This document shows, piece after piece, positions 671 to 61,433 of a stretch of DNA of 64,000 bases. Source of the DNA: Oceanisphaera pacifica (GTDB taxonomy: Bacteria > Pseudomonadota > Gammaproteobacteria > Enterobacterales > Aeromonadaceae); NCBI RefSeq assembly GCF_017498065.1, contig NZ_JAGDFX010000005.1, forward strand, positions 124,001 to 188,000, written 5' to 3'. Made by a program: the position numbers and the translations under genes. How positions within the stretch are numbered: position 1 is the first letter of the stretch; the number at the start of each line of letters is the position of its first letter. The notes beneath the pieces are model-generated. The model was given only the letters and a program-made list of their open reading frames with translations. It was not told the origin of the DNA and searched no databases.

Positions 671-2284
671 TTAGTTTTGCAAGCGGTAGTGATTGATCAT
701 GTCCTCTAACACCTTACATTCTTCCACTAACTGCAAGCTGGCTTTGGCCGCCGCAGTGGATTGCATTAAGGTCTCACCTGAAGAGTCACGCACCCGCGTA
801 ATATTGTAACTTACCTCAGCACACACAGAGCTTTGCTCGTTAGACGAGGTAGCCACTAACGCATTTAACTCATTAATGCGCTGCACCTGCTCTACTATGT
901 CTTGTAAAGACGCCATGGCGGCTTGGGTGCTAGACACACTGCTCACCGCTTGCCCTTCTGCCTTTTCAATGGCCAATACCGCTTCTTTAGCTTCGCTTTG
1001 TAGTAAGTGGATCATGTCGGTAATTTCTTGTGCCGATTGCTGAGTGCGCAATGATAGCGTACGCACTTCATCGGCCACCACTGCAAAGCCTCGGCCTGAC
1101 TCTCCCGCCCGTGCCGCTTCAATGGCGGCGTTAAGCGCCAGCAAATTGGTTTGCTCAGCAATGCCTTTGATCATATCCATAACATGGTCTACTTGGTTAC
1201 AGCGATCATCTAAGGTACGCACCACACGGTCAATACGGCCAATTTCACCACTCAGCTCTTCTATGCCCGCCACGGCCACTTGCGCTTGCTCATTGGCGGT
1301 CATGGCAAAGGTATTACTTTGTTCAGAAGTTTCGGCAGTGAGTCGCGCATTTTCTCGCACTTCTTGCGCTGAAGCTTCCATTTCATTAACGGCTGTGGCA
1401 ATGAGTGCGGTTTCTTGATCTTGGGCTTTTACCGAACTGTCTGTTTGTTCCGCCCCTTGTTGAATTTGATCCGCCGCACTATAAATTCGCCCGGTTACTT
1501 CTTGTACTTCCCGCAAGCTATGTTGAAAGCTGCTGAGCATGCCATTAACCGACACCACCAAGCCACCCAGTTCATCGTTACCCATGGGTACTAGGCGTGA
1601 TGTTAAATCGCGATTTTTGGAAAACTCTTGTAGGCGCTGACTAATATTCAAAATCGGATTTTTAAGATAATGATTTTGAATTAACCATAATAAAATACCG
1701 GCTAATAACATCACCACTAATAATACGCCGCCAAGACGCAAGTTATTATTATGAATTTGGCCAAAGGTATCACTTAAGTCATAACTAATACGCACCGCGC
1801 CCATTACCGTGCCTTCATCCACCACATGACATTGTAAACAGGCCGTGCCTCTATATTCTTTAAATGCTTTATAAGGTTTAACTAAAGTAAGGCTGGGGAT
1901 TTTATCATCTAAGTGTAAATCTAATACGGTTTCGCCTTGTTCAATGGCTCGTCGGTCAAGATCGTCCTCTATGCCCTGATCCGCAGCACCTGGGCCAAAG
2001 ATATTACTCACAGCCGGCGCACGTATGACCCGAGCTTGTTGAATGCCCAGCTCTTCTTGCACTTTATCTTGTACTATTTTCCGCTTATGGATCACGCCGT
2101 TTTCCATAAGCACATTGAGCTGATCCATATACAGATTAGCGGTCGTTTCTATTTTCTCTTCTGCTAATGTTAACACCAAGGTACGTTGCAATTTGGTAGA
2201 TACAATAAAGCACAAGATAAATACCAAAATAAATGTCACTAGAAGCGGAATAATAATCTTCCAGTTTAAAGAAAGGTTGCGCAT
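671..2284 (-). CDS. Methyl-accepting chemotaxis protein with periplasmic heme c-binding (Tll0287/DUF3365-like) sensor domain
   Basis: A 537-residue inner-membrane chemoreceptor. A first membrane helix (about 10-30) is followed by a periplasmic domain (about 31-182) holding CLQCH (149-153), a c-type heme attachment motif inside a sequence resembling the Tll0287-like/DUF3365 family. A second membrane helix (about 183-203), a HAMP region (about 204-255) and a long cytoplasmic coiled coil follow. The highly conserved hairpin that contacts CheA/CheW is present ([20 protein letters not shown], about 370-390). There is no C-terminal CheR-docking pentapeptide. The heme suggests sensing of redox state, NO or another gas; the ligand cannot be read from sequence. 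A near-consensus FNR box lies 80-93 bases upstream of the start, which fits anaerobic expression. The gene stands alone between two terminators. Confidence 0.88.
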
Positions 2285-2334
2285 TATTTTTAATCTCAGA
2301 TAACATTACAGTAAGTCATTCTAAAATAAACAAA

Positions 2335-2377
2335 ATGTTAATAAACATCAATAATTAGATTAATTGATCTAGATCAT
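2335..2377 (-). promoter_or_regulatory. Candidate FNR-activated promoter of the heme chemoreceptor gene
   Basis: TTGATCTAGATCAT at 2364-2377 matches the FNR box TTGAT-N4-ATCAA at all defined bases but the last. On the minus strand TAACAT at 2340-2335 (4/6 to TATAAT) would place transcription start near 2328, putting the box centre at about -42.5, the usual class II position. This is inferred from pattern and spacing only. Confidence 0.5.
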
Positions 2378-2419: not shown

Positions 2420-2452
2420 AACGCCCCATACTGTTTAACAGTATGGGGCGTT
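2420..2452 (-). terminator. Terminator of the sdh-suc operon
   Basis: A perfect 16-bp inverted repeat (2420-2435 with 2437-2452, core ACGCCCCATACTGTT) starts 46 bases after the sucD stop codon. On the minus strand it is followed by CTCTTTTG, a short U-rich tract. It closes the long TCA transcript before the chemoreceptor promoter. Confidence 0.75.
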
Positions 2453-38321: not shown

Positions 38322-39743
38322 TCACCCTGCATCTTCAATCAGGGGGATCACCACCTCAACATCGGGTAAAAGCGCGGTGAGTTTTGCTTTTAATGCCAGC
38401 TTGGCCTCAAGATCGCCGTGTACTAAACGAATTTGCTGAGGAGCGGGGCTAATGGCTTGGGCAAACTGGAGTAAATCACTTTGATCGCCATGGGCCGAAT
38501 AGCCCTCAATGTTGTGGATCAATGCATTAATGGCTATGCGCTCACCGTCTAACTCAACCCAAGCATAGTCATCTTTGCCATCAGTTAATAGCTCCACCCC
38601 ATCAAAACGGGGGCCGTTTTCAACGATCACCCGCCCTGGTGTGTCTTCTGCCTGAAAACCGACAAATAAAATATGATGGCGAGCATCGGGCAGCAATTCT
38701 TTTAAGTAATTGACCACCCGCCCCCCTGCACACATGCCAGAGCCGGCAATAACCACCGCCGGTTTATCTGATTTCAGCACATTTTCAAGACAAAGTAGGT
38801 GATCTTCATGGCCATCAATCACGGTTAACTGAGGAAATATCAGCGGATGACGACCTTGTTTGAGCAAGTCTTGCGCATCTTGGTTCCAGTGGTATTTTAA
38901 ATCACCGTATAGGCGGGTTATGTTAGCCGCCAGCGGCGAGTCCACAATAATCTCAAGTTCATGCCATGGCAGGTGCTCGGCTACTTTATCTTGCCCAAAG
39001 TCGTGAATAATGCTTTCTAATTCATACAATAAGTCTTGGGTGCGCCCTAAACTAAAGGCCGGAATTAACACTAAACCTTGATCAACAAAGCTCTGCTCTA
39101 TTTCTGACTTTAAGCGCAACCGCCTATCAACTCGGCTGGGGTGCTCCCGATCGCCATAGGTGCTTTCTAATATCAATACATCACAAGGGCTGGGTGGGGT
39201 TGTATTAACGATCAGCGGAGAGTCTTCGGCACCTAGGTCACCGCTAAAGATAACGCGCTTACCCGCGGCGTCGCACTCCACATAGGCCGAGCCTAAAATA
39301 TGCCCCGCCTGCTGAAATCTAAATTTAATCTCGGTGCCCAGTAAGGCTTGCCACTGATCAAACGGCAGCGGGCGAATTTGGCGCTGCATTTGTTTAAGTA
39401 CTTGCTTTGCCACCGACTTACTGTGCTTGGCACTAAACTTAAGCGCGTCTTCTAACATGGCCGGCAATAAGATGGCAGAAGGCTCGGTGCAAAAAATAGG
39501 CCCTGTAAAGCCGGCCAGCAATAAATAGGGAATGCGCCCCACGTGGTCTACATGCACATGGGTCACCACCAAGGCGCGAATATGCGCTATTTCAAAGTCG
39601 ATATCTAAGTCTTCGCGAAAATCTGTCCCCTGAAACAAGCCACAATCAATGAGTATGCCAGCGTCCCCTACCCGTACTTCGTGACACGAGCCTGTCACCC
39701 CCAGTACGGCACCATGGTGTTTAATATCAACAGTATGACTCAT
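38322..39743 (-). CDS. Beta-CASP metallo-beta-lactamase-fold nuclease (RNA-processing type)
   Basis: A 473-residue protein with metallo-beta-lactamase motifs THVHVDHVGRIP (HxHxDH), AGHILGSAYVE and FSGDLGAEDSP. Beta-CASP motifs are also present: ILESTYGDREH, VIAGSGMCAGGRVVNYL and GYSAHGDQSDLL. This set matches the CPSF73/YSH1-like bacterial exonuclease group, which cuts or degrades RNA with zinc. The size and lack of a KH domain suggest the compact bacterial form. Cellular targets are unknown. It is transcribed alone, with a possible promoter in 39744-39867. Confidence 0.88.
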   Translation of the reverse strand: MSHTVDIKHHGAVLGVTGSCHEVRVGDAGILIDCGLFQGTDFREDLDIDFEIAHIRALVVTHVHVDHVGRIPYLLLAGFTGPIFCTEPSAILLPAMLEDALKFSAKHSKSVAKQVLKQMQRQIRPLPFDQWQALLGTEIKFRFQQAGHILGSAYVECDAAGKRVIFSGDLGAEDSPLIVNTTPPSPCDVLILESTYGDREHPSRVDRRLRLKSEIEQSFVDQGLVLIPAFSLGRTQDLLYELESIIHDFGQDKVAEHLPWHELEIIVDSPLAANITRLYGDLKYHWNQDAQDLLKQGRHPLIFPQLTVIDGHEDHLLCLENVLKSDKPAVVIAGSGMCAGGRVVNYLKELLPDARHHILFVGFQAEDTPGRVIVENGPRFDGVELLTDGKDDYAWVELDGERIAINALIHNIEGYSAHGDQSDLLQFAQAISPAPQQIRLVHGDLEAKLALKAKLTALLPDVEVVIPLIEDAG

Positions 39744-40089: not shown

Positions 40090-40668
40090 TTAGTGCCAAC
40101 CTTCAATATTGCTCATATCGGGTAGCTTATGGGCAATGCCTTTATGGCAGTCAACGCAAGTTTTATCACCCGAGGCAAGCGCAGTAGAATGTAAACGCAC
40201 AGCCCTTGGCCCTTGTTCTGAGAAGTCCATATAGTCAAATTGATGACAATTACGACACTCTTGTGAGTTGTTTTCCTTCATGCGCTGCCATTCTCGATGC
40301 GCTAAATGCCCACGGCGAGCCTTAAACTTCTCTTCGGTATCAATGGTTCCTAAAAAGTGAAACACCAGCTCTTTTGATGCTTGCACCTTGCGCACAATTT
40401 TATCGGTCCAATCATGAGGCACATGACAGTCCGAGCAAATAGCGCGCACCCCGGAGCGGTTGGCATAGTGAATGGTTTCGCGAATTTCTTTAACTATGGG
40501 CTCATGACAGCTAGAACAAAAGGCTTCGGTATTGGTCGCCTCCATGCCAGTGTTAAATGCCCCCCAAAACAATAAGCCTCCCAAAAAACCCATTAATAAC
40601 ACTAGGCCTGCGGCGGCTTTACTGGGTCTGGATAAGCGTTGCCAAAATCTTTTTAATAGTTTAATCAT
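40090..40668 (-). CDS. napC: Tetraheme c-type cytochrome NapC, quinol dehydrogenase
   Basis: Takes electrons from quinol and passes them to periplasmic NapAB. It has 192 residues. A single N-terminal membrane anchor (about 18-37, AAAGLVLLMGFLGGLLFWG) precedes a periplasmic domain with four CxxCH heme sites: CSSCH (51-55), CSDCH (78-82), CRNCH (139-143) and CVDCH (172-176). All belong to the NapC/NirT family pattern. It lies 35 bases after napB. With no napGH in view, NapC is the only quinol link for nitrate reduction here. Confidence 0.95.
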   Translation of the reverse strand: MIKLLKRFWQRLSRPSKAAAGLVLLMGFLGGLLFWGAFNTGMEATNTEAFCSSCHEPIVKEIRETIHYANRSGVRAICSDCHVPHDWTDKIVRKVQASKELVFHFLGTIDTEEKFKARRGHLAHREWQRMKENNSQECRNCHQFDYMDFSEQGPRAVRLHSTALASGDKTCVDCHKGIAHKLPDMSNIEGWH

Positions 40669-40703
40669 CTTGCATACTCTTTAGTTGCATGGGCAATCAC
40701 CCA

Positions 40704-41180
40704 TTATCGTAACGAGTCGACGCTCAAAAAGCGGTTTTCAACCAAAGGCTTAGCGTCGGCTTGGGGCACATGACACTGCAAGCAAAAGTAACGACGCGGC
40801 GACACATCAGATAACACCTGATCTTGGCGATTAACATAATGGGTAACACTAATTTTGGTGGCGCCCATTTCTTTGGCATTCTTCCAACTATGACAAGACA
40901 AGCACTTATTCGCATTTAACGACACTTCATAATTACGAATGGTATGAGGCACCAAAGGTGGCTGATACACATAGCTACTTTCTAAATAGTGATCCCGCGG
41001 AAAGCGCTTAAAGCTGTCTGCCGCGCGTGTAGCTTCAAGCTCACTCAAGCCCCGTAACGACGCCACGCCACCAATACCCGCAGGGTTAGTCTGCACTCCC
41101 TCTTCTGCTGTCGCCAGTGAGGCGGCACCCAACAGCGCGTGACTAACCAAAAGTAATGCCATTATTATTTTTTTCATCAT
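40704..41180 (-). CDS. napB: Periplasmic nitrate reductase diheme cytochrome subunit NapB
   Basis: A 158-residue secreted diheme cytochrome c that receives electrons from NapC and gives them to NapA. An N-terminal Sec signal peptide (MMKKIIMALLLVSHALLGAA, cleavage probably near TAEE, about residue 25) precedes heme motifs CLSCH (93-97) and CLQCH (133-137). The ligands fit the family (HYLESSYVYQPPLVPHTI supplies distal histidines). Two adjacent ATGs follow CGGAGC; 41180 is used here. The open frame continues to 41207 without support. It follows napA by about 76 bases. Confidence 0.95.
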   Translation of the reverse strand: MMKKIIMALLLVSHALLGAASLATAEEGVQTNPAGIGGVASLRGLSELEATRAADSFKRFPRDHYLESSYVYQPPLVPHTIRNYEVSLNANKCLSCHSWKNAKEMGATKISVTHYVNRQDQVLSDVSPRRYFCLQCHVPQADAKPLVENRFLSVDSLR

Positions 41181-41256
41181 TTGCTCCGGTTCTGTTGCGG
41201 CCAACACCTTGCATTCTTAGTGTTGGCCTTAGCCCTAATCCAGTTGGTTTGCTGCG

Positions 41257-43749
41257 CTATACGCTCGCTAACTTGGTTATTTTTACCGGACATTTTTTAT
41301 AGTCAGTTTGTTTAGATAGCGGATCTGTAGCATCCAAAATCAACTTATTGACTAAAATGCGGGCATCAAAGAAAGGCACAAACACCAAGCCTTTGGGTGG
41401 CCGGTTACGACCACGGGTTTCTACCCGCACGCGAATTTCACCCCGTGGCGATTCAATTAATACTTCGTCTCCACGGCGTAAATTACGTGATATCGCATCA
41501 TCAGGGTGGATGTAGCAATGCGCATCAGGCACCGCCTTATAAAGCTCAGGCACGCGACGGGTCATGGTGCCGGTGTGCCAGTGCTCAAGCACACGACCGG
41601 TACAAAGCCACATATCGTACTCGTCATTCGGCACTTCGGGGGGCGCTTCATAAGGCGCTGAAATAATTAGGGCTTTACCATCGGGCTGACCGTAAAAATC
41701 ACGGCCCTCGCGCTTAGCATAAGGGTCATACTCAGGATTAAAGCGCCATAAGGTTTCTTTACCGTCAACCACAGGCCAACGTAAGCCACGCACCTGATGA
41801 TAAGTATCATAGGGGGCTAAATCGTGGCCATGGCCGCGGCCAAACTCGGCATATTCTTCAAACAAGCCTTTTTGTACGTAAAAACCAGCAGCCTTGGCAT
41901 CGTCATTTAGCGCTTGCGCTTCAGATAGCGGGTATTTATCTACCTTGCCATTGGCAAATAAAATGTCATATAGGGTTTTGCCACGTAATTCTGGCGCTTG
42001 GCTCATCAAGTCTTCACCCCACACTTCTTCAATATTAAAGCGCTTAGCGAATTCCATAATTTGCCATAAATCAGATTTGGCTCCCTCTACCGGCGACACC
42101 TGTTGATACCAAACTTGGGTCCGACGCTCGGCATTACCATAGCCCCCCTCTTTTTCAACCCACATGGCGGTGGGCAAAATTAAGTCTGAGGCTTGAGCGG
42201 TCACGGTTGGGTATGGGTCTGAGCAAACCACAAAATTATCGGGATGACGATAACCCGGTAAACGCTCGGTATTAATATTGGGGCCCGCCTGCATATTGTT
42301 ATTACACATCACCCAATAGGCATTCAGCACACCGTCTTTTAACATGCGGTCTTGCTGCACCGCATGAAAACCCGGTTTAGCCGGAATGGTGCCAGCGGGG
42401 AGCTGCCAAATCTTTTCTGCTGTTTTACGGTGCTCAGGGTTAGCCACCACCAAATCGGCAGGTAAACGATGCGAAAAAGTGCCCACTTCTCGGGCGGTAC
42501 CACACGCAGAAGGCTGACCGGTCAGCGAAAAGGGGCTATTGCCGGGCTCAGAAATTTTACCGGTTAATAAATGCAGGTTATACACCAAACTTTGCATCCA
42601 GACCCCACGGGTATGCTGGTTCATGCCCATGGTCCACAACGACATCACCTTGGTATTGGGATCGGCATATTGCTTGGCGAGCGCAATTAAGTCTTCGGGT
42701 AATACCCCCGACATTTCAGCAGCTTTTTCTACCGTATAAGGCGCCACTGAGGCTTTGTATTCCTCAAATGAAATATCAGACATAGCGCCTGAGTTGGGGT
42801 TTTCAGCCTTAACCTGTAAGGGATCGTCATCACGCAACCCATAGCCAATATCGGTCGTGGCCTGTTTAAAGTGGGTGTGCTGGGTAACAAAGTCCCAGTT
42901 TACCGCCTCGTTTTCAATAATGTAGTTAGCAATAAAGTTGGCAATGGCTAAGTCTGACTGCGGATGAAAGATCATGCCCTTATCTGCTAGCTCAAAGCTA
43001 CGGTGATAATAGGTTGAGAGCACATTCACCTTTACATGCTCATGGCTCAAGCGACGATCGGTAATGCGCGTCCACAACACTGGGTGCATCTCCGCCATAT
43101 TGGAGCCCCACAGCACAAAGGAGTCGGCATGTTCAAAATCGTCGTAACAGCCCATAGGCTCATCAATACCAAAGGTGCGCATAAAGCCCACCACGGCAGA
43201 GGCCATACAATGGCGGGCGTTAGGGTCAATATTATTAGAGCGAAAGCCCGCTTTCATCAGTTTAGATGCAGCATAGCCTTCCATAATGGTCCACTGACCA
43301 GAGCCGAACATACCAACGCTGGTGGGGCCTTTTTCTTTTAGTGCTTTTTTAAACTTCTCTGCCATGACATCAAAGGCGGTGTCCCATGACACAGGCGCAA
43401 AGTCGCCGTCTTTATCATATTGACCATTTTTCATGCGCAGCAAAGGCGTGGTTAACCTGTCTTTGCCATACATAATTTTCGATAAAAAGTAGCCCTTAAT
43501 GCAGTTAAGCCCTTTATTTACCGGCGCTTCTGGATCACCTTGGGTGGCCACCACACGACCTTTTTGGGTGCCCACCAGCACAGAACACCCGGTACCACAA
43601 AAGCGACACGGCGCTTTATCCCACTTAATGGCAGTTTCATCGGAGCTAACAATTAAATTGGTCGCTGAAGCGGGTAAGGTTATGCCCGCCACGGCCGCCG
43701 CAGAGGCGGCCGCATTGGCTTTTACAAATGCACGTCTTGTTATCTTCAT
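41257..43749 (-). CDS. napA: Periplasmic nitrate reductase catalytic subunit NapA
   Basis: Molybdenum bis-MGD enzyme reducing nitrate to nitrite in the periplasm. It has 830 residues (E. coli 828). A twin-arginine signal (TRRAFVK, 4-10) is followed by an alanine-rich stretch ending ASA (29). The [4Fe-4S] cysteines are Cys48, 51, 55 and 83 ([14 protein letters not shown] and GLNCIKGYF). The Mo-ligand cysteine lies in [20 protein letters not shown]. The C-terminal molybdopterin domain includes [20 protein letters not shown]. It begins 17 bases after napD, its dedicated TAT chaperone. Confidence 0.97.
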
Positions 43750-43766
43750 ACAGATTGCCCTCAGAG

Positions 43767-44117
43767 TTAGCGTTCAGCATTTTTTAGTATTATGTGTTCG
43801 GGGCAGGCGGTGGCCGCTTTGCGCTCATCGGCATTTTTTACCGCAAGCTCCCCGATTAATTCATCATCTTGTTCGTATTCAATTTGGTGAAACACCAAGG
43901 CCACACTCAACACATGGTCAAGTCGATTAATGGCTTCAATGGTGTCGGTTATATAGCCTTGGTTTTGGGTTTCTATGACCACCACCAGCTTACCTGCCGC
44001 ACTTTCACCGTATATTTCAGCGCCAGCAAAAGACGTAATCTGCTGCTTAATGATCGCTAAATGTTCAGGCACGGCATGCACCACTAGGCTAGAAATATGA
44101 ACTTCATTCAGTGACAT
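43767..44117 (-). CDS. napD: NapA maturation chaperone NapD
   Basis: A 116-residue cytoplasmic chaperone that binds the twin-arginine signal of NapA and delays export until the cofactor is in place. ATG 44117 gives [20 protein letters not shown], the family start (ferredoxin-like fold), and [15 protein letters not shown] is the second landmark. The C-terminal 30 residues are charged and longer than in E. coli NapD (87 residues). It overlaps the end of napF by 14 bases. Confidence 0.92.
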
Positions 44118-44616
44118 TAGCACCCTCTTGTTCAGAATATGTGACGACAATGGCGGAGGTGGGGCAGACTGAGACACAGGCACCACAACCGGTGCAGCTG
44201 GATAAGTCTATGTGAGGTTGCGCCACCTTACCCACCGCCAATTTAAAGCGAATAGCAAAGGGCTCACAGCTATCACCACAACTGCGACAATCTACGTTTT
44301 GATAGGCCAAACAACTGTCTTTAATTATGGCTTTTGTCTGCCACGCGGGCTCGCTTTGGGGTAAAAATAATGGTTCAGGGCAGGCTTGGGCGCATTGATA
44401 GCAAAAAGTACATTCATCAATATGAAAGTCGACCCGCGGAAAACCGCCATCACCGGGGCGAATAATTTGCGTTGGACACTGCTTAATACAGTCACCACAC
44501 TGGGTACATAAATCGGTAAAGTGCGCCTCTTTTAACCAAGGCAATGCGGGTTTATCTAGGGTGTCTCGCCGCGTAAAAAACTGGCGTCGTGAAAGATTAA
44601 CTTGAGAGTCTGACAT
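44104..44616 (-). CDS. napF: Ferredoxin-type protein NapF
   Basis: Cytoplasmic iron-sulfur protein thought to help mature NapA. It has 170 residues with four cysteine clusters: CTQCGDCIKQCP, CTFCYQCAQACP, CRSCGDSC and CTGCGACVSVCP. The third is less regular, with a preceding CLAYQNVD. The N terminus is SRRQFFTRR. ATG 44616 follows AAGGAATG; a GTG eight codons upstream is possible but has no ribosome site. First gene of napFDABC, downstream of an FNR-type promoter. Confidence 0.93.
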   Translation of the reverse strand: MSDSQVNLSRRQFFTRRDTLDKPALPWLKEAHFTDLCTQCGDCIKQCPTQIIRPGDGGFPRVDFHIDECTFCYQCAQACPEPLFLPQSEPAWQTKAIIKDSCLAYQNVDCRSCGDSCEPFAIRFKLAVGKVAQPHIDLSSCTGCGACVSVCPTSAIVVTYSEQEGANVTE

Positions 44617-44696
44617 CACTGCATTCCTTGTCGAAGACACTTATCCCTGTCAGATAAAAATCTTTGATATTCAAGCCTTAGTAAACTGGTATTTAG

Positions 44697-44765
44697 TTTA
44701 CTTATAATAAGGCTCATTGAATAGGTTTTAAGTAATGATTGACGAATAACCTTGATATAAATCAA
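44697..44765 (-). promoter_or_regulatory. FNR-dependent nap promoter with possible NarP/NarL site
   Basis: TTGATATAAATCAA at 44752-44765 is a perfect FNR box. On the minus strand TATTAT (44709-44704, 5/6 to TATAAT) would give a start near 44697, placing the box at about -61.5, a class I position. Between them TATTCGT-CA-ATCATTA (44748-44733) matches the NarL/NarP 7-2-7 pattern at 10 of 14 bases with centre near -43.5. The E. coli napF promoter has FNR and NarP sites at comparable distances. The FNR box is clear; the other elements are tentative. Confidence 0.65.
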
Positions 44766-44881: not shown

Positions 44882-45283
44882 CTATTTACGATGCAAAGAG
44901 ATCAATAACTCGGCTTCGGCTCTGGGCATTTCACATTCAGCCATAATTTCATCTATACCCGCGCCTAATTGCACCATGCGAGTGGCGCGGCTATAGAGTC
45001 GACCTTGGGGATCTTTCAGCGCCAGCTCTTGCTGTTGCTCGGTCAATTTATCGTGCTTGCGATATAATTCACCCACTTTATTACCCATGCCAATGTTGGC
45101 CGCCTGCAACTCATCAATTTGCTTGCGATAACTGTCACGGGTGCGCGTTAGCTCTCGCATAAGCCGGCTCATGGCCTCAAGCTTACGTTGGCTTTGGCGC
45201 CACATAGACCAGGCTACAAATAAGGATACACTCCCGACTAATAGCGCGACACAGGCTAAAATAAAAGCAGGCTCAAACCACAT
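44882..45283 (-). CDS. DUF2802 protein at the end of the che operon
   Basis: A 133-residue protein with one N-terminal membrane helix (FILACVALLVGSVSLFVAW, about 7-25), a coiled coil rich in Arg, Glu and Gln (about 27-85), and a small C-terminal domain (YSRATRMVQLGAGIDEIMAE, CEMPRAEAELLISLHRK) that looks like a helix-turn-helix fold. It belongs to DUF2802, found just after cheW in polar-flagellate gammaproteobacteria. Its role in chemotaxis is unknown; a membrane-tethered scaffold is one guess. Its start overlaps the cheW stop by one base. Confidence 0.82.
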   Translation of the reverse strand: MWFEPAFILACVALLVGSVSLFVAWSMWRQSQRKLEAMSRLMRELTRTRDSYRKQIDELQAANIGMGNKVGELYRKHDKLTEQQQELALKDPQGRLYSRATRMVQLGAGIDEIMAECEMPRAEAELLISLHRK

Positions 45284-45771
45284 TACAATTGACCCAACTC
45301 ATCCCACTCTTCATCAGATAATAGCTTATCCAGATCCACTAAAATCAATAATTGATCGTCACGATTACAAACGCCCTGAATAAACTTAGCACTTTCGCTG
45401 GTGCCGACATTGGGCGCGGTCTCAATTTCTGAAGACTTGAGATACACCACTTCAGCAACACTGTCGACCATAATGCCGATCACTTGCTTTTCAGCCTCAA
45501 TAATCACAATACGCGTATTGTCGGTGACTTCAGAAGATGCAAGACCAAACCGTAAACGGGTATCCAGTACCGTCACCACATTACCGCGTAAGTTAACAAT
45601 TCCCAGTACATAATCCGGTGCACCCGGCACAGGCGCAATCTCGCTATAACGCAAGACTTCTTGTACCTGCATTACATTAATGCCATAGGTTTCATTATCT
45701 AAGCAGAAGGTGACCCACTGCAATACCTCACCCTCGGGAAGATTTTCAGCTACATTTCGATGACTGTTCAT
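45283..45771 (-). CDS. cheW: Chemotaxis coupling protein CheW
   Basis: Adapter linking chemoreceptors to CheA in the signalling array. It has 162 residues of a single CheW SH3-like domain. Landmarks are VTFCLDNETYGINVMQVQEV, PDYVLGIVNLRGNVVTVLD and IIEAEKQVIGIMVDSVAEVV, and the latter half ends in the usual receptor-binding strands (LLILVDLDKLL). It is the second CheW-domain protein of this operon, after the ParP-like gene directly upstream (20-base gap). Confidence 0.95.
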   Translation of the reverse strand: MNSHRNVAENLPEGEVLQWVTFCLDNETYGINVMQVQEVLRYSEIAPVPGAPDYVLGIVNLRGNVVTVLDTRLRFGLASSEVTDNTRIVIIEAEKQVIGIMVDSVAEVVYLKSSEIETAPNVGTSESAKFIQGVCNRDDQLLILVDLDKLLSDEEWDELGQL

Positions 45772-45791
45772 AGATTACCCTTATTACCTGC

Positions 45792-46628
45792 TCAGACTTG
45801 TTGTCCATCTATATTCTTACCTTGCTCCAGTAGACTAATCAAGGCGTCTACATGAAGTAAGGCACACATTTTTTCTTTAACCATGCCCGCCAACCAAGGC
45901 CGAGCCCCTGGCGTCACACGCCATTTTACTTGTTCTCGCGTTAATAACGCTGTGCCCTTTAACTGATGACAGCTCAGCCCCCAGTTACTGTCACCTAAGG
46001 TAACCAAGTATTCATATTCTTTTTCATTTTGATGACTGGGCATGGCCCAACGCGCGGTATCCACCACATACAGTTGGCGATCTCGCTCGGTCAGCATACC
46101 GGCAAACCAGTCGGGCTTACCAAACAAACTGGTTAGCTTAGACATTTGATAAATGCCGCCTAAGTGAGTCAGAGGAACAGCAAAGGTCATGCCGGCCACT
46201 TCAAAATATAGCACCTGAAAACTAGCTTCAGTGTCCATATTGCGCCATTCATCACGCGGCGGTGCACTTATTGGCTCAGGCGCAGTTTTAACTTCTGTAA
46301 TGATCTCAGGCGGTGGCTTAGCCACAACGGGTTCAGGCTCAATAACAGGTGCAGGCGCAACGGGAGCCTCCTTAATTTCTGGCTGCTCAATAGGCGCAGG
46401 CGTAGCAAGTTGTTCTTCTTCTTTAAGCTCTGCCACTTGTGCCAATAAGGCTTCTAAGGTTTGGTGGCGCTCGGCTTCTTTGGGTTCAGCAAAGGGCTTG
46501 GCTGTGATGGTACTTGGCGCAGGATTAACCTGAGGTTGAGGATCAGCGCTGGGCGCTGTATCTGGCTCAGTTTCTGTTAATAAGGCACCAAAATAATCAT
46601 CTAATGCATCTGAATGGTGTTGATTCAT
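45792..46628 (-). CDS. CheW-domain scaffold protein, ParP-like
   Basis: A 278-residue protein with a Pro/Ala/Glu-rich, probably disordered N-terminal half (about 1-130). The C-terminal CheW-like domain (SFQVLYFEVAGMTFAVPLTH, then LGGIYQMSKLTSLFGKPDWF) is the array-integration type. The position directly after a ParA-type gene matches ParC-ParP of Vibrio, where ParP holds polar arrays by contacting CheA and receptors. ATG 46628 overlaps the parA stop as ATGA. The N-terminal region has strongly repetitive codons on both strands, which creates false antisense frames. Confidence 0.82.
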   Translation of the reverse strand: MNQHHSDALDDYFGALLTETEPDTAPSADPQPQVNPAPSTITAKPFAEPKEAERHQTLEALLAQVAELKEEEQLATPAPIEQPEIKEAPVAPAPVIEPEPVVAKPPPEIITEVKTAPEPISAPPRDEWRNMDTEASFQVLYFEVAGMTFAVPLTHLGGIYQMSKLTSLFGKPDWFAGMLTERDRQLYVVDTARWAMPSHQNEKEYEYLVTLGDSNWGLSCHQLKGTALLTREQVKWRVTPGARPWLAGMVKEKMCALLHVDALISLLEQGKNIDGQQV

Positions 46629-47409
46629 AGCGCCGTCTCCGCCCCTTCTTGTTGCCATAAATACCGTAACAAAGAGTGGTAGGCAAACACGCCTCGGCTA
46701 CCTTTAGCAAAATAAGAAGGCGGTTCATGGCGCAAACTGGCATCACGAAACTTGGTATCCACCGGAATAACCGACGGCCACAAGTTACCCTCATATTCTT
46801 GCTCTAAACTATTTAAGCTTTGTACCGAGGCACGCGTGCGCTGATCAAACATGGTTGGGACTATCGTATAGTTAAAGCCTTCTTTTTTCGCTCTGTGCAT
46901 TAATTTAAAGGTACTAACCATACGCTCTAGCCCTTTAATGGCTAAAAACTCGGTTTGCACTGGCACTAAAATACGGTCGCAGGCCGCCAAGGCATTGACC
47001 ATCATCACCCCCAACACAGGTGGGCAGTCAATAATCACCACATCAAAATCTTGCTCTACTTCACTGAGTAAACGTTTGAGTACCAGCCCCATGCCCTCTC
47101 GGCTACTTGAAGTACGCTCTAAGGTGGCCAGTGAAATAGAGGCAGGCAATAAGGTAATACCATTAAAGCGCGTTTTTAATGACACTTGCTCAAATAGTGC
47201 TCGTGTTGGCTGAGGCGCTTTAAACAAATCAAACAGACTATGTTGTAGGCCATCCATATCATAGTCAAAATAAGAGGTCAGCGAACCATGAGGGTCGGTA
47301 TCGATCAACAAAACACGCTTATTATGCTGAGATAATAAGCCTGCCAGTGCGACGACAGTGGTTGTTTTTCCTACGCCACCTTTTTGATTTGCTACTGTCC
47401 AAACTATCA
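46625..47409 (-). CDS. ParA-family ATPase for polar chemotaxis arrays (ParC-like)
   Basis: A deviant Walker ATPase of 261 residues that positions chemotaxis arrays at the pole in Vibrio and Pseudomonas relatives. The deviant Walker A is KGGVGKTTTVVALAGLL (about 10-26), and DFDVVIIDCPPVLGVMMV is the Walker B region. The frame starts with TTG near 47410, preceded by AGGA located in the end of the motD gene. It is followed by ParP-like and CheW genes, which defines the role better than sequence alone. It is not a plasmid ParA: no parB or parS is present. Confidence 0.88.
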
Positions 47410-47413
47410 ATGC

Positions 47414-48268
47414 TTATTCCTGTGTTGTGCCGATACGAATGCCACCATTGGGCAGCTCATATACACGTAAATCCGGATTTTTTTCTGTGGCCAAAGGCCG
47501 AGATGGTAGTGCGGCAGGCGCCTGCCACTGCTGAGAAGATATCGCAATATCCACTCGCCGACTTTGTGCACGACTAGACACCGCTAACTGGCTGTCTGGT
47601 GCTTGAAACTCACCATAGGCTTCTAAAGCTAGCCGCGGGGCATTAATGCCTTCATGCAGCAGCCATTCTAATACCGCACGCGCTCGCTCGGCAGATAACT
47701 GCCAATTAGAAGCATATAATTCGTTATTTACGGGCAAATTATCGGCATAACCTCGTACCCGTATAAAATGTGTTCCCACGGTTAATGCCGGTATAATGCG
47801 ACTCAACAGTGGCTTAGCATTCGCCCCCAGCAAAGCACTGCCACTGGCAAATAATAATTTACCGTCAAAACTTACAATTAACCAATCACCCTTTTCTTCT
47901 AACACAACCGATTCTTGTTGTAATAATCCCGGCAAGGCTAAAGCGAGTTGCGCTTTTATATCAGATAATGGGGCCTCTATATCTTTAAGCTGTCTGTTAA
48001 TGTTAAGCGCCTCTTTATTCTCAGACTGCATGATCATTAAACTATCAGCGTCAGTGGGCTCAGGCTTACCATTTAATCGGACTAACGCTTGCTCTATGCC
48101 GTCTAACATAGGCTGCTTATGCTCTGTTTTGCTGGCGTTAATGGCATATAGCACCACGAACAAGGCAAACACTAATGTCATATAGTCGGCATACGACACT
48201 AACCAACGCTCTGGGCCAGAGGTACCACTGGCCTTTTGATGACGAGAGACGAAAGAACGGCGTCTCAA
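47414..48268 (-). CDS. motD: Flagellar motor stator protein MotD (MotB family)
   Basis: A 284-residue stator subunit. The single membrane helix WLVSYADYMTLVFALFVVLYA holds the ion-binding aspartate (Asp28). A periplasmic OmpA-like peptidoglycan-binding domain lies near the C terminus (RVRGYADNLPVNNELYASN, then WQLSAERARAVLEWLL). It starts with TTG that overlaps the motC stop, with AAGGG upstream. It is paired with MotC; in Pseudomonas the MotCD pair serves as a second stator set. Whether it uses H+ or Na+ cannot be told from sequence here. Confidence 0.88.
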   Translation of the reverse strand: MRRRSFVSRHQKASGTSGPERWLVSYADYMTLVFALFVVLYAINASKTEHKQPMLDGIEQALVRLNGKPEPTDADSLMIMQSENKEALNINRQLKDIEAPLSDIKAQLALALPGLLQQESVVLEEKGDWLIVSFDGKLLFASGSALLGANAKPLLSRIIPALTVGTHFIRVRGYADNLPVNNELYASNWQLSAERARAVLEWLLHEGINAPRLALEAYGEFQAPDSQLAVSSRAQSRRVDIAISSQQWQAPAALPSRPLATEKNPDLRVYELPNGGIRIGTTQE

Positions 48269-49008
48269 TGGCGCAGCCCTTGATATTGCGCTAACTGACG
48301 GCTCATCGACAAGCTACTGTCACCTCGGGCAATGGCGACTAAACCGATAGTTGTTAACTCTCTATAACGTAGCTCCAATCGATAAATCGCCCGTAACCGA
48401 TTAGCTAAAGGTAATAACAATAAGTTAGCTAACCCCACACCGTATAATGTGGCCACAAATGCCACCGCAATACCGGCTCCTAGCTGACTGGGGTCTTCTA
48501 GATTAGACATTGCCTGAATAAGCCCCAATACGGCACCTATAATACCAATGGTAGGGCTATAGCCCCCCATGGCTTCAAATACTTGTGCCTCTAATTCTTT
48601 TTGCTCTTCAATACGGTTTAACTCATTATCAAACAGCTGCTCTAAGGCCATCAGCTCAGTGCCATCTACCACCCATTGCAAGCCTTGACGAGTAAAAGCA
48701 TCAACACTCGACTGTTCACCCTTAGACTCAAGAGCTAAGAAGCCTTCTTGGCGTGCCAAGTGAGACCAGTGTAACAAACGAGACGCTTGTTCACTAAAAT
48801 CCCATCTGGGCAAGCTAAATAATTGACCTGCCGCTTTTACAGCAGCGCTAAACTGTCGCCATGGCGTTTGTAGTAATACTGCGCCTAAGGTGCCGCCCAG
48901 CACAATTAATAGTGCGGGCCCATCTAGCAGCCCCCATAAGCTACCGCCATGCCACCATTGTGCAACCACAATGCAGCCAAGCGCTAATATCAGCCCACTT
49001 AACGCCAT
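48265..49008 (-). CDS. motC: Flagellar motor stator protein MotC (MotA family)
   Basis: A 247-residue protein with four membrane helices. ALLIVLGGTLGAVLLQTPW is the second helix. GGYSPTIGIIGAVLGLIQAM and AGIAVAFVATLYGVGLANLL form helices 3 and 4, which line the ion channel with MotD. A cytoplasmic loop (about 55-145) carries charged residues that contact the rotor. It sits two bases after cheB and overlaps motD by four bases, as in the Pseudomonas cheB-motC-motD-parA-cheW order. Confidence 0.9.
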   Translation of the reverse strand: MALSGLILALGCIVVAQWWHGGSLWGLLDGPALLIVLGGTLGAVLLQTPWRQFSAAVKAAGQLFSLPRWDFSEQASRLLHWSHLARQEGFLALESKGEQSSVDAFTRQGLQWVVDGTELMALEQLFDNELNRIEEQKELEAQVFEAMGGYSPTIGIIGAVLGLIQAMSNLEDPSQLGAGIAVAFVATLYGVGLANLLLLPLANRLRAIYRLELRYRELTTIGLVAIARGDSSLSMSRQLAQYQGLRH

Positions 49009-49009
49009 A

Positions 49010-50215
49010 CTAGCTGCTCATCTCATTGACGATGGCTTCGCCAATAATGGGTAAGGGTAAAGACTCTGTGGCAATCCCCGCTTTGGCAACGGCTTGCGGC
49101 ATGCCGTATACCACACAGGTTTCTTCATCTTGGGCCCACACACTGGCACCTTGCGCTTTTAGTAAGCGCGCCCCTTCTCGCCCATCGGCGCCCATGCCGG
49201 TTAGCACCACTGCCAGTACCTTACCTCCATACACTTTAGCGGCAGAGGCAAAGGTAATATCAACGCAGGGTTTGTAATTGACTTTGTCATTGCCATCAAT
49301 AATGCGCAGGCGTGTCGCCCCCGCTCGCCCTTCAAACATCATCTGCTTACCACCGGGGGCGAGATAAGCATGCCCAGGGCGCACTGGGTCGCCATCTTGT
49401 GCTTCTTTTACGTTAATTTTACATAGGGTATTAAGCCGAGCAGCAAACGCCGAGGTAAAAGTACCGGGCATATGTTGTATTAATACTATGGGATGCGCAA
49501 AATCTGCCGGCAATTTGGTTAATACATCTTGTAAGGCCACAGGACCACCGGTTGAGGTACCAATAGCCAGCAATTGATAGCTTTTGCCGCTGCGCTTGGG
49601 TGCACTACGACGTGGCTCTGGCACCTTGGTCACCGCAGGCTCTATGGGCGCAACTCGCGCGCGTGATGCCCCAAGCACAGAGCTGGGGTTAGGCCTTGTT
49701 CTGGGCTCAACAGCCGCTCTCGGCTGGCGACCCAATGCAGGGCGTGCTGGTATGCTGCTTGCGGTGGGCCCTGTTGTGGTCGCGGTAGAAGGTGGCGTTT
49801 TCGGCGAGACAAAACGACGACGACGCGCAATGGCCTTCACTCGTTGTTGTAACAATAAAATTGCGTCTTCGCGACTGCGCGCAATATCTTCAAATTTTTT
49901 GGGTAAAAAATCGACCGCACCGGCATCCAACGCATCTAACGTTGCTTGGGCGCCATCGTGAGTAAGCGAAGAAAACATTAATACCGGCGTGGGTACGTCT
50001 TGCATAATTCTACGCACTGCAGTAATCCCATCCATTACCGGCATTTCAATATCCATGGTAATGACATCGGGGCGTACTAGCCGCGTTTTTTCGATAGCCT
50101 CTTGACCATTAGCCGCAGTATCAACCACAGTAAGCATGGGATCCTGATTGAGGATCTCACTCACTCGACGCCTAAAAAAGCTAGAGTCATCAACCACTAG
50201 TACCCGAATAGACAT
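49010..50215 (-). CDS. cheB: Chemotaxis response regulator protein-glutamate methylesterase CheB
   Basis: Removes methyl groups from chemoreceptors and is activated by phosphorylation. It has 401 residues. The receiver domain ([20 protein letters not shown], phospho-Asp in [12 protein letters not shown]) is followed by a long basic and proline-rich linker (about 135-205). The catalytic domain has Ser in [17 protein letters not shown], His in [19 protein letters not shown] and Asp in [19 protein letters not shown] precedes the ATG. The linker is longer than in E. coli. Confidence 0.96.
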
Positions 50216-50238
50216 TAATATCCTCGCACTTCTTTTAT

Positions 50239-52287
50239 TTAGACGTAACGTCTTGCGTAAGCTTTAATTAAGCCTGCCAAGTCTAAGATCAACGCAATGC
50301 CGCCGTCACTGGTAATGGTCGCCCCGGCCATACCTGGCGTACCGTGCAGAAGTTGATCTAGCGGTTTAATCACCACCTCTTCTTGGCCAATTAAGCCATC
50401 CACCACAAAGCCGACTTGCTGATTACCTACCGCCACAATCACCACATGACCTTGCTGCTGGCGCGCTCGTGGCTCACCTTTTAATAGCCAGTCTTGCAAA
50501 TAAAATAGCGGAATAGCATGGTTACGAACCACCACAGTTAACTGCCCGTCCACCATACTGGTGCGGGTTAAATCAAGGTGGAAAATTTCATCCACATTGG
50601 TCAGTGGCAGCGCAAAAGTCTGTTTGCCCACCAATACCATCAAGGTCGGCAAAATAGCCAAGGTCAGCGGTACTTTAATTTGCAGCTTGGTACCGACTCC
50701 CTTTTCTGAGTCAATATGAATAGAGCCATTAACCGAAGTAATACCGGTTTTCACCACGTCCATGCCCACACCACGGCCAGACACATCAGTAATTTCTACT
50801 TTGGTTGAAAAGCCCGGTGCAAAAATCAGATTATAAGCTTCATTATTGGTCATGCGCGCCGCTGCATCCGCATCTAAGATGCCACGACTCATCGCAATCT
50901 CTTTAAGCTTTTGTGCATCCATGCCGGCACCGTCATCTTCAATGCCCAGCAAAATATGATCGCCCTCTTGAGAAGCCGTAAGCCGTATTACACCCGCTCT
51001 GGGTTTGCCCGCTGCTTCACGCTCCTCTGGCATTTCTATACCGTGATCACACGAGTTGCGCACCAAATGCACTAAGGGATCGGCCAAGGCCTCCACTAAG
51101 TTTTTATCTAAATCGGTATCTTCACCCACCATTTCCAGATTAATTTCTTTTTTCATAGTGCGCGCAATATCACGCACCACCCGCGGAAAACGGCCAAACA
51201 CTTTCTTAATGGGCTGCATGCGGGTTTTCATTACCGCACCCTGTAAATCACCGGTTACCGCATCTAAGTTAGCCACGGTTTTAGAGATATCTTCGTTCTC
51301 ATGGTTAGCATCAAGGCTAAGCAAACGGTTACGCACTAATACCAGCTCACCCACCATATTCATGATGTTATCGAGTATTTTAGTATCAACGCGCACTGAA
51401 GTATCTGCGGGGGCACTATGGGTTGTTGCCTTAGCCGGAGCTTTGTCTGCCGCTTTAGCAGCTGATGTTGCAGGTGCAGGAGCAGGTGCAGGAGCCGGCT
51501 CGGCTTTAGGAGCTGGTGCAGGTTCAGACGAAGCACTCGCGGTCACCGTTGGCCCCTTACCTGAACCATGTAATTCATCCAGTAAGTTTTCAAACTCCAG
51601 ATCGTCAATTAAATCATCGTCTAAAGCTGTCGGCTCTGACTCTGGTGCCGCTACTTCAGGCGCACCACCGTGCTTACCCGCACCGTGTAGCTGGTCTAAC
51701 AATGCCTCAAATTCATCATCGGTAATATCGTCTGAATCTGAGTCTGATGCTGCCGCACTTGTAGAGGCTTTTGATTCGGGCCCCAGCTCAGTCAGCATTT
51801 GCTGATATTGACTGTCGTCTAGCCCGGCCAGGCCCGGCTCAGCCGGTGCCGCGGCTGTCACCTCAGTAAGACTGTCTTCAACAGCCTCATCTTCGGTTTC
51901 AGGACGACAATAGCCCTCTAATGCGGCTAATAAGTCGGGCTCGGCTGGAGTCGGCTCTTCACGGTTTTGAATTTCAGCAAACATGACGTTTACTGTATCC
52001 AAGGCGCGCAAAATAACGTCCATTAGCTCTGGGGTAACTTGTCGTTGGCCGTTGCGCAAGATATCGAACACGTTTTCGGCTTTGTGGCAGGTATCAACCA
52101 GCGCAGTCAACGACAAAAAGCCAGCCCCACCTTTAACGGTGTGAAAGCCACGGAAAATAGCATTTAGTAGATCTTTATCATCTGGCTGTTGCTCTAGGGT
52201 TACTAACTGCTCCGACAACTGCTCTAGGATCTCTGATGCTTCAATCATAAAATCCTGTAGAATATCTTCATCTACATCAAAGCCCAT
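50239..52287 (-). CDS. cheA: Chemotaxis histidine kinase CheA
   Basis: Central kinase of the array, phosphorylating CheY and CheB. It has 682 residues. The HPt domain has its phospho-His in [14 protein letters not shown] (His49). Residues about 130-295 are acidic, then Pro/Ala-rich, with three spaced copies of a DDxx-(Y/F)-xx-(L/M)L motif and no recognisable P2 CheY-binding domain. The P3 dimerisation helix is [20 protein letters not shown]. ATPase motifs include [24 protein letters not shown] and [13 protein letters not shown] CheW-like P5 ends the protein. It starts after AAGGAG. Confidence 0.96.
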
Positions 52288-52296
52288 GTTCTCTCC

Positions 52297-53046
52297 TTAG
52301 AATCCCAAACTAGACAGTAAATCATCCACACCGTCTTGGTCTGAAATGACATCTTGGCGATGTTCTTTATGCATAATGGGGCCTTCGGCAGTAATATCCG
52401 AGGCCGGATCATTTTTTGGCGTAGACTGGGCTTCTTCCATATCCGGCAAGCGGCCGAATACAGACAAAATAGCAACCAACTTGGCTTCTACTTCTTGCAC
52501 CAGATTAATAACCCGACGGATCATCTGGCCAGTTAAATCCTGATAATCTTGTGCCATTAAAATTTCGGTTAACAATTCTTTTAACTGATCGGCATCTTGA
52601 TTAGAGCTCAGTAAAAAGCCATCCAGTTTAAAACATAACTCTTTAAACTGTCCCAGCTCTAACTGACGCTCCATCAGCTCACGCCAACTTGGCATAATTT
52701 GTTGAATATTGTCTGTAAGGCGATCAACAATCGGCAAGCTGGTTTCTACCGCATCCATAGTACGGTTAGCCGCTTTATCTGTCATATCAATAACATAACT
52801 TAAGCGTTCACGAGCATCAGGAATTTCATTTTCTGTGATCTCAGGTAAACGCGGATCATTACGAAACTCCTGTAAAGAGTCGTGTAATTGACGCGTAAGC
52901 TGCCCTACCTGATCAACCAAATCTTTCGCTTGGGGCATGCACACGTCAGTCAAATAACGGTCTGCTCCTTCCTGATCGCCACGCTCTAACATCGCTACCA
53001 GTATGCGAGCCTGATCTAAGCTGATCGTTCCTTTGTGAAATGCCAT
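52297..53046 (-). CDS. cheZ: Protein phosphatase CheZ
   Basis: Dephosphorylates CheY-P. It has 249 residues, mostly helical. The long helical hairpin includes AQDYQDLTGQMIRRVINLVQ, which has the catalytic Gln (and Asp) of the family. The extreme C terminus DGVDDLLSSLGF is the CheY-binding peptide. It sits between cheY (12-base gap) and cheA (9-base gap). Confidence 0.95.
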   Translation of the reverse strand: MAFHKGTISLDQARILVAMLERGDQEGADRYLTDVCMPQAKDLVDQVGQLTRQLHDSLQEFRNDPRLPEITENEIPDARERLSYVIDMTDKAANRTMDAVETSLPIVDRLTDNIQQIMPSWRELMERQLELGQFKELCFKLDGFLLSSNQDADQLKELLTEILMAQDYQDLTGQMIRRVINLVQEVEAKLVAILSVFGRLPDMEEAQSTPKNDPASDITAEGPIMHKEHRQDVISDQDGVDDLLSSLGF

Positions 53047-53058
53047 TATGCTGCCTTT

Positions 53059-53442
53059 TTATCCAATTCGCTCGAACACTTTTTCAAGCTTTTCTTTTAA
53101 GGTACCCGCTGTAAAAGGTTTAACCACATAACCGTTTACCCCAGCCTGGGCAGCAGCAATAATTTGCTCGCGTTTAGCTTCAGCCGTCACCATTAATACC
53201 GGCAGGTGTTTGAGCTTTTCGTCCGCCCGAATTGCCTTTAATAGATCAATCCCCTGCATACCTGGCATATTCCAGTCAGTCACAACAAAATCGAAATCGC
53301 TGTTTTTTAGCATGGGTAATGCAGTCAAACCATCATCAGCCTCTAAGGTATTATTAAACCCAAGATCCCTTAATAAGTTTTTTATGATTCTGCGCATAGT
53401 GGAAAAGTCATCCACAATCAGGATTTTCATATTTTTGTCCAA
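53059..53442 (-). CDS. cheY: Chemotaxis response regulator CheY
   Basis: A single receiver domain that controls flagellar rotation by binding FliM. The start is decided by the ribosome site: TTG at 53442 lies 7 bases after AGGAG and gives [12 protein letters not shown] (127 residues), while ATG 53430 has no site at usable distance. The acidic pocket is Asp11 and Asp12, the phospho-Asp is in [12 protein letters not shown] (Asp56), the Thr is in [13 protein letters not shown], and the Lys is in [10 protein letters not shown]. First gene of cheYZAB, downstream of a candidate sigma-28 promoter. Confidence 0.95.
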
Positions 53443-53498
53443 GCAATATCTCCTATCAGCTAAATCAATGGCGGCTGAACACAACAAGTATTTTAACT

Positions 53499-53525
53499 AT
53501 ATCGACCCACAAAACCTTAACTTAA
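53499..53525 (-). promoter_or_regulatory. Candidate sigma-28 (FliA) promoter of cheYZAB
   Basis: On the minus strand TTAAGTTA, 11 bases, then GTCGATAT matches the FliA consensus TAAAGTTT-N11-GCCGATAA at 6 of 8 in each half with the exact spacer. It lies 57 bases upstream of the cheY TTG. FliA itself is encoded just upstream, which suits class IV control. Confidence 0.5.
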
Positions 53526-53634
53526 ATCGTATATCGGGCAATTAGCACAATAAAACATACCAAGCCGCTTAAATTGGTCATTTAACATACAGGTATGAAT
53601 AGTAGAACCCGAATCAAGCAACGCGGTGCAAAAA

Positions 53635-54357
53635 TTAGCCGTTCCATTCTTTTAGTTTTGCGCGTAATCGGTGCATAGCTTGACTGTGAATTTGGCTAAC
53701 GCGTGACTCACTAACATCCAGCACTTGACCAATCTCTTTTAAATTCAGCTCTTCATCATAATATAAAGATAACACCATGGCTTCTCGCTCAGGCAAGGTT
53801 TTAATGTGCTGCGATAAAGACGTTTGAAAGCGCTGCTTAGCCATGTCATCAAAGGGGTTATCGCTATGATGCCCCACCTCTACATGGGCATCAATACCCG
53901 CCTCAAACTCATCCATATCAAGGATTTTACCATTACTGGTATCACGCAACATAGCGTAATACACCTCTAGGCTCACCTTAAGCTCATCAGCCACTTCCCG
54001 ATCGGTGGCATTGCGCCCTTCTCGCGCTTGCACCTGGGCAATCGCATCGGCAACTTGGCGGCTATGTTTGTGCACCGAACGCGGCACCCAATCACCTCGA
54101 CGCATTTCATCCAACATGGCGCCGCGAATACGAATACCGGCAAAGGTTTCAAAACTGGCCCCTTTACTGGCATCAAAATTACGAGTGGCTTCTAATAAGC
54201 CCACCATGCCCGACTGAATTAAGTCGTCTACTAATACATTATCTGGCAGCCGCGCTAATAAATGGTACGCAATACGACGTACCAAACCCGCATGACGTTC
54301 AATGAGTTGCGAGTGCTGTTGGCGAGCGTACACATTTGCTTTATTTACTCCAGACAT
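53635..54357 (-). CDS. fliA: Flagellar sigma factor sigma-28, FliA
   Basis: Directs transcription of late flagellar and chemotaxis genes. It has 240 residues. Region 2 includes VDDLIQSGMVGLLEATRNFD and FETFAGIRIRGAMLDEMRRG. Region 3 is HSRQVADAIAQVQAREGR. Region 4 is EEELNLKEIG... in the form SLYYDEELNLKEIGQVLDVS and RVSQIHSQAMHRLRAKL. The start overlaps the fleN stop by 17 bases. The next gene, cheY, begins about 190 bases downstream with a FliA-type promoter. Confidence 0.96.
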   Translation of the reverse strand: MSGVNKANVYARQQHSQLIERHAGLVRRIAYHLLARLPDNVLVDDLIQSGMVGLLEATRNFDASKGASFETFAGIRIRGAMLDEMRRGDWVPRSVHKHSRQVADAIAQVQAREGRNATDREVADELKVSLEVYYAMLRDTSNGKILDMDEFEAGIDAHVEVGHHSDNPFDDMAKQRFQTSLSQHIKTLPEREAMVLSLYYDEELNLKEIGQVLDVSESRVSQIHSQAMHRLRAKLKEWNG

Positions 54358-56630: not shown

Positions 56631-56645
56631 TTAACTATCACCCTG

Positions 56646-58742: not shown

Positions 58743-58780
58743 TTACACTACATTGCTCTAATAACTGATAGCCGACACCA

Positions 58781-58796
58781 TGCAAAAATCAAGCCA
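58781..58796 (-). promoter_or_regulatory. Candidate sigma-54 promoter of flhA-flhF-fleN-fliA
   Basis: On the minus strand TGGCTTGATTTTTGCA fits the sigma-54 consensus TGGCACG-N4-TTGCA with correct -24 (GG) and -12 (GC) spacing and two mismatches. Transcription would begin near 58770, about 28 bases before the flhA ATG. In polar-flagellate relatives this operon is transcribed by RpoN with FleQ/FlrC. Confidence 0.65.
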
Positions 58797-58833
58797 GACA
58801 GTCACACGCGATACGCTAGACGCAATTATTCGC

Positions 58834-59083
58834 CGGTCATTGCGAGGAGTGCAACGACGCGGCAATCCATTTAACAGACAGTAATAAGCTTGAAGCTTGA
58901 AGCCGGAAGTAAAAACAAAAATGCCTCTGTGTTTTTGTTTAGCTTACCGCTTCCAGCTCTCAGCTTCCGGCTTTCTTTATGCGGTACGAAAAAGCCAACC
59001 TGCTTTATCTTTAACGTATGATGTATAGCCTTAGACGCAGCGCTTTTTTGTTAAATGGATTGCTTCGTACCTCGCAATGACCG
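58834..59083. repeat. Nested inverted-repeat (MITE-like) element between flhB and flhA
   Basis: The outer arms CGGTCATTGCGAGGAG (from 58834) and CTCGCAATGACCG (ending 59083) are the ends of a 250-base imperfect palindrome. The left 38 bases (58835-58872) are identical to 13796-13833. Inside lies a second palindrome of the AGCTTGAAGC family (58886-58976, AGCCGGAAGT paired with CTTCCGGCTT). The flanks (58743-58833 and 59084-59133) carry the flhA promoter and nothing else I can name. No reading frame is supported. Confidence 0.7.
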
Positions 59084-59133
59084 ACGTTTTGGGGTTTTCT
59101 TTAACTGACAGCTGATAGCTCCCCGAAGGGTTG

Positions 59134-61059: not shown

Positions 61060-61069
61060 GCAACTCCTT

Positions 61070-61431: not shown

Positions 61432-61433
61432 TT

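Follow-up and report, generated by a model that had tools for sequence, protein, structure and literature searches.

Control of a chemoreceptor gene by an FNR-type regulator and chemoreceptors that carry heme c are each already known. An example of the former is Aer of Pseudomonas aeruginosa, a FAD-PAS energy-taxis receptor that, unlike the predicted heme-c receptor considered here, is without heme c. Its gene is under the FNR-type regulator ANR, according to a passage of PMC13401364 that cites Hong et al. 2004. A passage of the same article describes DcrA of Desulfovibrio vulgaris as a methyl-accepting chemotaxis protein (MCP) with a c-type heme, proposed to sense O2/redox; DcrA belongs to another organism group, and we liken it to our receptor by description, not by sequence. 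Two proteins of Geobacter sulfurreducens, GSU0935 and GSU0582, bind NO and CO with displacement of Met60 and have been proposed as redox sensors (PMC8396549). Biochemical work and sequence analysis have recently led to the proposal that heme-c Cache sensors detect NO in bacteria: in the sCache_heme family (DUF3365/Tll0287-like, PF11845) the CXXCH helix lies between strands 3 and 4, a signalling protein without an axial Cys bound NO with a slow off-rate and formed no stable oxy complex, and those stand-alone proteins that have an axial Cys appear to be redox-active (2026 preprint, PMC12889525).

The combination of a heme-c chemoreceptor with FNR control was not found in the literature that we searched, the coverage of which is incomplete. 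Here we describe a candidate for it in a 64-kb window (the whole stretch of DNA analysed) of the 3.1-Mb genome of a marine bacterium able to respire nitrate, a member of the Oceanisphaera group, Aeromonadaceae. The features of the receptor are as follows.

671-2284, minus strand: MCP of 537 aa, comprising a first transmembrane helix (TM1), a periplasmic heme-c Cache-like domain, TM2, HAMP and an MCP signalling domain (open reading frame and profile search)
1727-2191, minus strand: periplasmic sensor domain, aa 32-186, predicted Cache fold; best Foldseek match GSU0935, also aligned to Tll0287 (predicted structure; 57 relatives aligned)
1826-1840, minus strand: CLQCH heme c attachment motif, aa 149-153, on a short helix between strands 3 and 4 (sequence and predicted model)
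2105-2107, minus strand: codon of Met60, putative distal heme ligand like Met60 of GSU0935; invariant in 57/57 relatives

The protein matches the MCPsignal (PF00015, E 6.7e-39) and HAMP (PF00672, E 1.5e-7) profiles, and hydropathy places TM1 at about aa 4-38 and TM2 at about aa 180-207. The earlier note had placed CLQCH in the periplasmic domain, and the motif does lie between the two TM helices, thus on the side where the Ccm system attaches heme c; a ccm locus, CcmH included, is present in the genome. The order of domains, the CXXCH motif, the predicted fold, and the candidate distal Met at residue 60 (in GSU0935) are all shared with GSU0935 and GSU0582. The difference from these lies in an identity of only about 19%, in their proposed role as redox sensors, and in FNR control, which is not reported for them in the literature searched. 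There are 20 MCP signalling-domain matches in the genome by profile search. Among the 14 of these MCPs with a recovered gene, ours alone has a CXXCH motif, and among the 16 recovered MCP genes it alone has an FNR box (one mismatch or none) within 200 bases of its start.

Neither Pfam nor NCBIfam names a periplasmic domain in the window receptor, and searches of PDB sequences with its sensor found no relative above chance; structural relatives come from structure comparison only. The AlphaFold model of the sensor domain (pLDDT 89.2, pTM 0.83) has a Cache fold, with strands at 50-57, 89-93, 100-108, and 129-138 and a helix inserted between strands 3 and 4, the CXXCH helix, at 118-121. By E-value its top Foldseek match is the heme-c domain of GSU0935 of Geobacter (E 4.9e-6, 19% identity), and the high rmsd to this structure fits the domain-swapped crystal form of GSU0935. 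In VIA-align, Tll0287 (Z 10.3) appears among WalK, CitA, DcuS, and other Cache domains, and WalK scores above it. Since WalK is, to our knowledge, without heme, the fold by itself does not show heme; the CXXCH motif and its invariance do.

In an alignment of 57 domains with 38-85% identity to the window domain, both motif Cys, D23, N26, M29 (Met60 of the protein), G32, R54, and R57 are the same in all 57, and the motif His is present in 56, the remaining domain having an unknown residue at this site. Each domain has exactly two Cys, with no third cysteine anywhere. The heme-c-type periplasmic sensor that the earlier note had read from the sequence is therefore supported as a prediction by fold and invariant motif together. 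A different reading, in which this Cache domain senses a small organic ligand or some other electron acceptor and the heme is structural or tunes binding, we consider improbable: the fold is indeed the common ligand-binding Cache fold, but the invariant residues include CXXCH, Met60, and residues close by, and no organic ligand of GSU0935 was found in the literature searched.

The window protein resembles Cluster 2, the signalling type of the sCache_heme family, to which the Pseudomonas azotoformans protein belongs: its CXXCH lies in an extracytoplasmic domain between two TM helices, HAMP follows, the model shows a Cache fold in which the helix bearing the motif is inserted after strand 3 and before strand 4, and there is no axial Cys. 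It differs in that it does not reach the curated cut-off of PF11845, which gives no match in the window protein and touches only 19 of the 57 aligned rows, weakly (best E 0.0084). With fold and motif shared and the cut-off missed, the domain is best placed among heme-c Cache sensors as a divergent branch, not as a formal member of PF11845. A scan of our collection returned 379 relatives; the best 80 of these come from Oceanisphaera, Zobellella, Oceanimonas, Aeromonas, Oceanospirillum, Stutzerimonas, Grimontia, Salinivibrio, Photobacterium, and others. Within the order, 53 of 198 genomes have a relative; within the family, 53 of 75. The description of this pairing as little studied in gammaproteobacteria thus stands for FNR control, within the literature searched, but not for the sensor, whose relatives are widespread and whose kind, with its binding of NO, is the subject of the 2026 preprint (PMC12889525).

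Many genomes of the Aeromonas group additionally encode a smaller protein, of about 280-290 aa, in which this heme-c domain recurs but an MCP output domain is absent; its length resembles that of the P. azotoformans protein (TM plus HAMP) described in the preprint (PMC12889525). In Aeromonas piscicola, popoffii, and bestiarum the sensor domain is matched as two pieces with about 160-190 nt between them, which looks like an insertion or disruption.

Upstream of the receptor gene, the following features were found.

2318-2323, minus strand: conserved -10 element TAGAAT, 47 nt from the centre of the FNR box in 16/16 species
2338-2351, minus strand: second FNR-like site TTGATGTTTATTAA with 1 mismatch, present in part of the clade only and overlapping the -35 region (motif scan)
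2364-2377, minus strand: FNR box ATGATCTAGATCAA (gene strand), agreeing at 9 of 10 specified FNR positions; conserved in 16/16 orthologs
2420-2452, minus strand: strong intrinsic terminator after sucD, which separates sucD from the receptor promoter

Boxes with no more than one mismatch occur about once per 9 kb within the 64-kb window, so a site in a single genome is by itself weak evidence for FNR control. Comparison across the clade of Oceanisphaera, Zobellella, and Oceanimonas is more telling. The pattern TTGATNNNNATCAA is conserved upstream of the receptor gene in all 16 orthologs, the box lying at -93 from the ATG here and at -92 to -97 in the 16 species; it is perfect in 11 of them, and its commonest form is TTGATCCAGATCAA. 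Mean column conservation is 0.96 in the box and 0.95 in the -10 element; for the remainder of the downstream block it is 0.62, and for the 60 upstream bases 0.44. Pairwise identity is 0.94 (box), 0.90 (-10), and 0.49 (spacer). The box is thus real, being kept in every species far above the surrounding DNA.

Its position relative to the start point is not the one first proposed. The earlier note had assumed class II spacing, about 42 bases before the start. When a -10 matrix was scored at each distance from the box centre, a single peak was found at 47 nt (mean 6.4; runner-up 0.5), with negative values at class II distances; a -10-like element at a class II distance (TATTAA) is present in one subclade only. 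A class II promoter with its centre at -41.5 was rejected on this test, no conserved -10 lying at that distance. Counting the first base of the -10 hexamer as -12 to -14, the box centre falls at -59.5 to -61.5. Because the only conserved -10, a TAGAAT-like hexamer, implies a box near -60, class I would be the better reading of its position, the start point being deduced from the -10 element.

It is unlikely, in our view, that the box is a chance match or the operator of another gene, with the receptor expressed along with the flagellar regulon. A small divergent ORF does lie across the box in Zobellella and Oceanimonas, and Aeromonas orthologs have a sigma28-like promoter; against this, the ORF was not found in this Oceanisphaera window, where the box is kept and sucD is closed by its terminator, so that the box most likely serves the receptor. 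The spacing to the conserved -10 on the receptor strand is also fixed, and no properly placed sigma28 element was found at the receptor in the clade. The conservation of this promoter across relatives suggests that the receptor would be switched on when oxygen runs out.

The pairing of an FNR box with the receptor is limited to this clade. In Aeromonas, the 300 bases before the receptor, which form the gap to a divergent HutW-like radical-SAM gene, contain three elements: a palindrome resembling a Fur site, an FNR-like box that is conserved and reads TTGTTCTGGATCAA in most cases, and the sequence GCCGATAG, which is sigma28-like; the identities of the gene, the palindrome, and the sigma28-like element are our assignments by eye from the sequence. 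The sigma28-like promoter lies nearer the receptor and the FNR-like box nearer the radical-SAM gene. The box, at about -199 and adjoining the palindrome, was therefore rejected as support for control of the receptor. At three of 26 pseudomonad-type loci, the receptor is preceded by a perfect FNR/ANR box at a distance of about 275-300 bases, and in Stutzerimonas a hemN-like gene lies downstream of the receptor. The Aeromonas and Stutzerimonas orthologs suggest that control may have switched from sigma28 to FNR; few other receptors of this genome show a clear sigma28 element either.

The Crp/FNR family in the genome comprises one FNR, one CRP, and one broken third member. The FNR has CQDCSISQLC (CxxCx5C) and a fourth Cys, that is, the iron-sulphur-cluster cysteines of oxygen-labile FNR. 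Together with the conserved box, these four cysteines support, at the level of sequence, the earlier claim that an FNR-type regulator probably controls the receptor. The broken gene, spread over several frames, adjoins a chemoreceptor gene and could be a decayed DNR-like regulator. Perfect FNR boxes number 16 genome-wide, compared with three for the reversed control pattern. One of them is the second box that the earlier note had recognised in the window and is as described there.

44752-44765, minus strand: perfect FNR box that precedes napF and the nap operon (motif scan)

FNR-like boxes also precede nirK (TTGATCTATATCAG), hmp (a perfect box), and the cbb3 oxidase region. NirK, the copper nitrite reductase, scores above its NCBIfam cut-off, and a 764-aa qNorB (quinol NO reductase) lies beside a divergent NorR-like gene; qNorB, NorR, Hmp, and cbb3 are presumed identities, named by eye. 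NirS was not found in this genome, nor was NrfA, which is present in most Aeromonas. A cupredoxin match was rejected as NosZ since its context looks like that of a CopA-type multicopper oxidase. NirK is periplasmic, and NO therefore arises in the same compartment as the predicted heme. The denitrification setting proposed in the earlier note is thus borne out as far as gene content goes: NO would be made in the periplasm by NirK and consumed by qNorB and Hmp.

With FNR-like boxes before nap, nirK, and hmp, and with FNR, Ccm, and qNorB/NorR encoded, periplasmic NO is a plausible signal for the receptor. The main rival, possible though in our judgement doubtful, is a heme sensor of redox (energy/O2), in which oxidation and reduction of the c-heme would swap the distal Met60 on and off and FNR would merely restrict the receptor to low oxygen. 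The N-terminal helix has an invariant Met comparable to Met60 of GSU0935, which takes part in a redox-linked switch (PMC8396549), DcrA is described as an O2/redox sensor in a passage of PMC13401364, and relatives of the receptor occur in genera not known as denitrifiers. However, the sole tested signalling-type sCache_heme protein behaved as an NO sensor, not an O2 sensor (PMC12889525), and the NirK encoded here is a periplasmic source of NO. Both readings suit the protein; we favour NO over redox on account of the respiratory setting and of the lack of an axial Cys, which matches the signalling Cluster 2 type.

The distribution of the family counts against NO. Many relatives are found in Aeromonas (which have no NirK), Photobacterium, and Salinivibrio, genera that are not known to denitrify. 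Within the genus-level group, receptor and NirK do not co-occur significantly: NirK is present in 14 of 16 genomes with the receptor and in 5 of 7 without it (P = 0.56, Fisher's test). Taken as a whole, then, the family has no fixed link with denitrification.

We consider the case evenly balanced for a chemoreceptor with one c-type heme that is activated by FNR from near -60 and reports periplasmic NO produced by NirK. According to this NO reading, the periplasmic Cache domain would carry a single covalent c-type heme at CLQCH, with His153 as the proximal ligand and Met60 as a likely exchangeable distal one. FNR would switch the gene on from its class I-type position when oxygen is scarce, and NirK would make NO in the periplasm during nitrate respiration. 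Binding of NO to the ferrous heme would displace the distal ligand and alter CheA activity via HAMP, and the cells could thereby place themselves in a gradient of NO/nitrite. More tentatively, it may be a dedicated NO chemoreceptor with a periplasmic covalent heme, placed under FNR with nap, nirK, and hmp, by which denitrifying cells would steer by their own respiratory intermediate. The sensor represents a widespread gammaproteobacterial branch below the Pfam threshold; in one clade the promoter appears to link the receptor with anaerobic respiration, in a genome that also encodes a source of NO in the periplasm. Taxis toward or away from NO is directly testable in culturable Oceanisphaera, Zobellella, and Oceanimonas. 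Without the NO part, the receptor would be a neat but unsurprising addition to the known heme-c chemoreceptors.

Three further observations concern the surroundings. A beta-CASP metallo-beta-lactamase-type protein is encoded at 38322-39743, and its scores against the Cas14_MBL_CASP and archaeal aCPSF1 models are far below the cut-offs. The nap operon with its perfect FNR box (40090-44765) directly adjoins the main chemotaxis/flagellar cluster (45283-64000), which contains cheW, a ParA-like gene, motCD, cheB, cheA, cheZ, fliA, a flhG-like gene, flhF, flhA, flhB, fliR, and fliP. Elsewhere in the genome, a perfect FNR box (position 1501 of its locus) lies 194 bases upstream of the ORF of a FleQ/FlrA-like flagellar master regulator (from 1695), a possible second link between FNR and motility.
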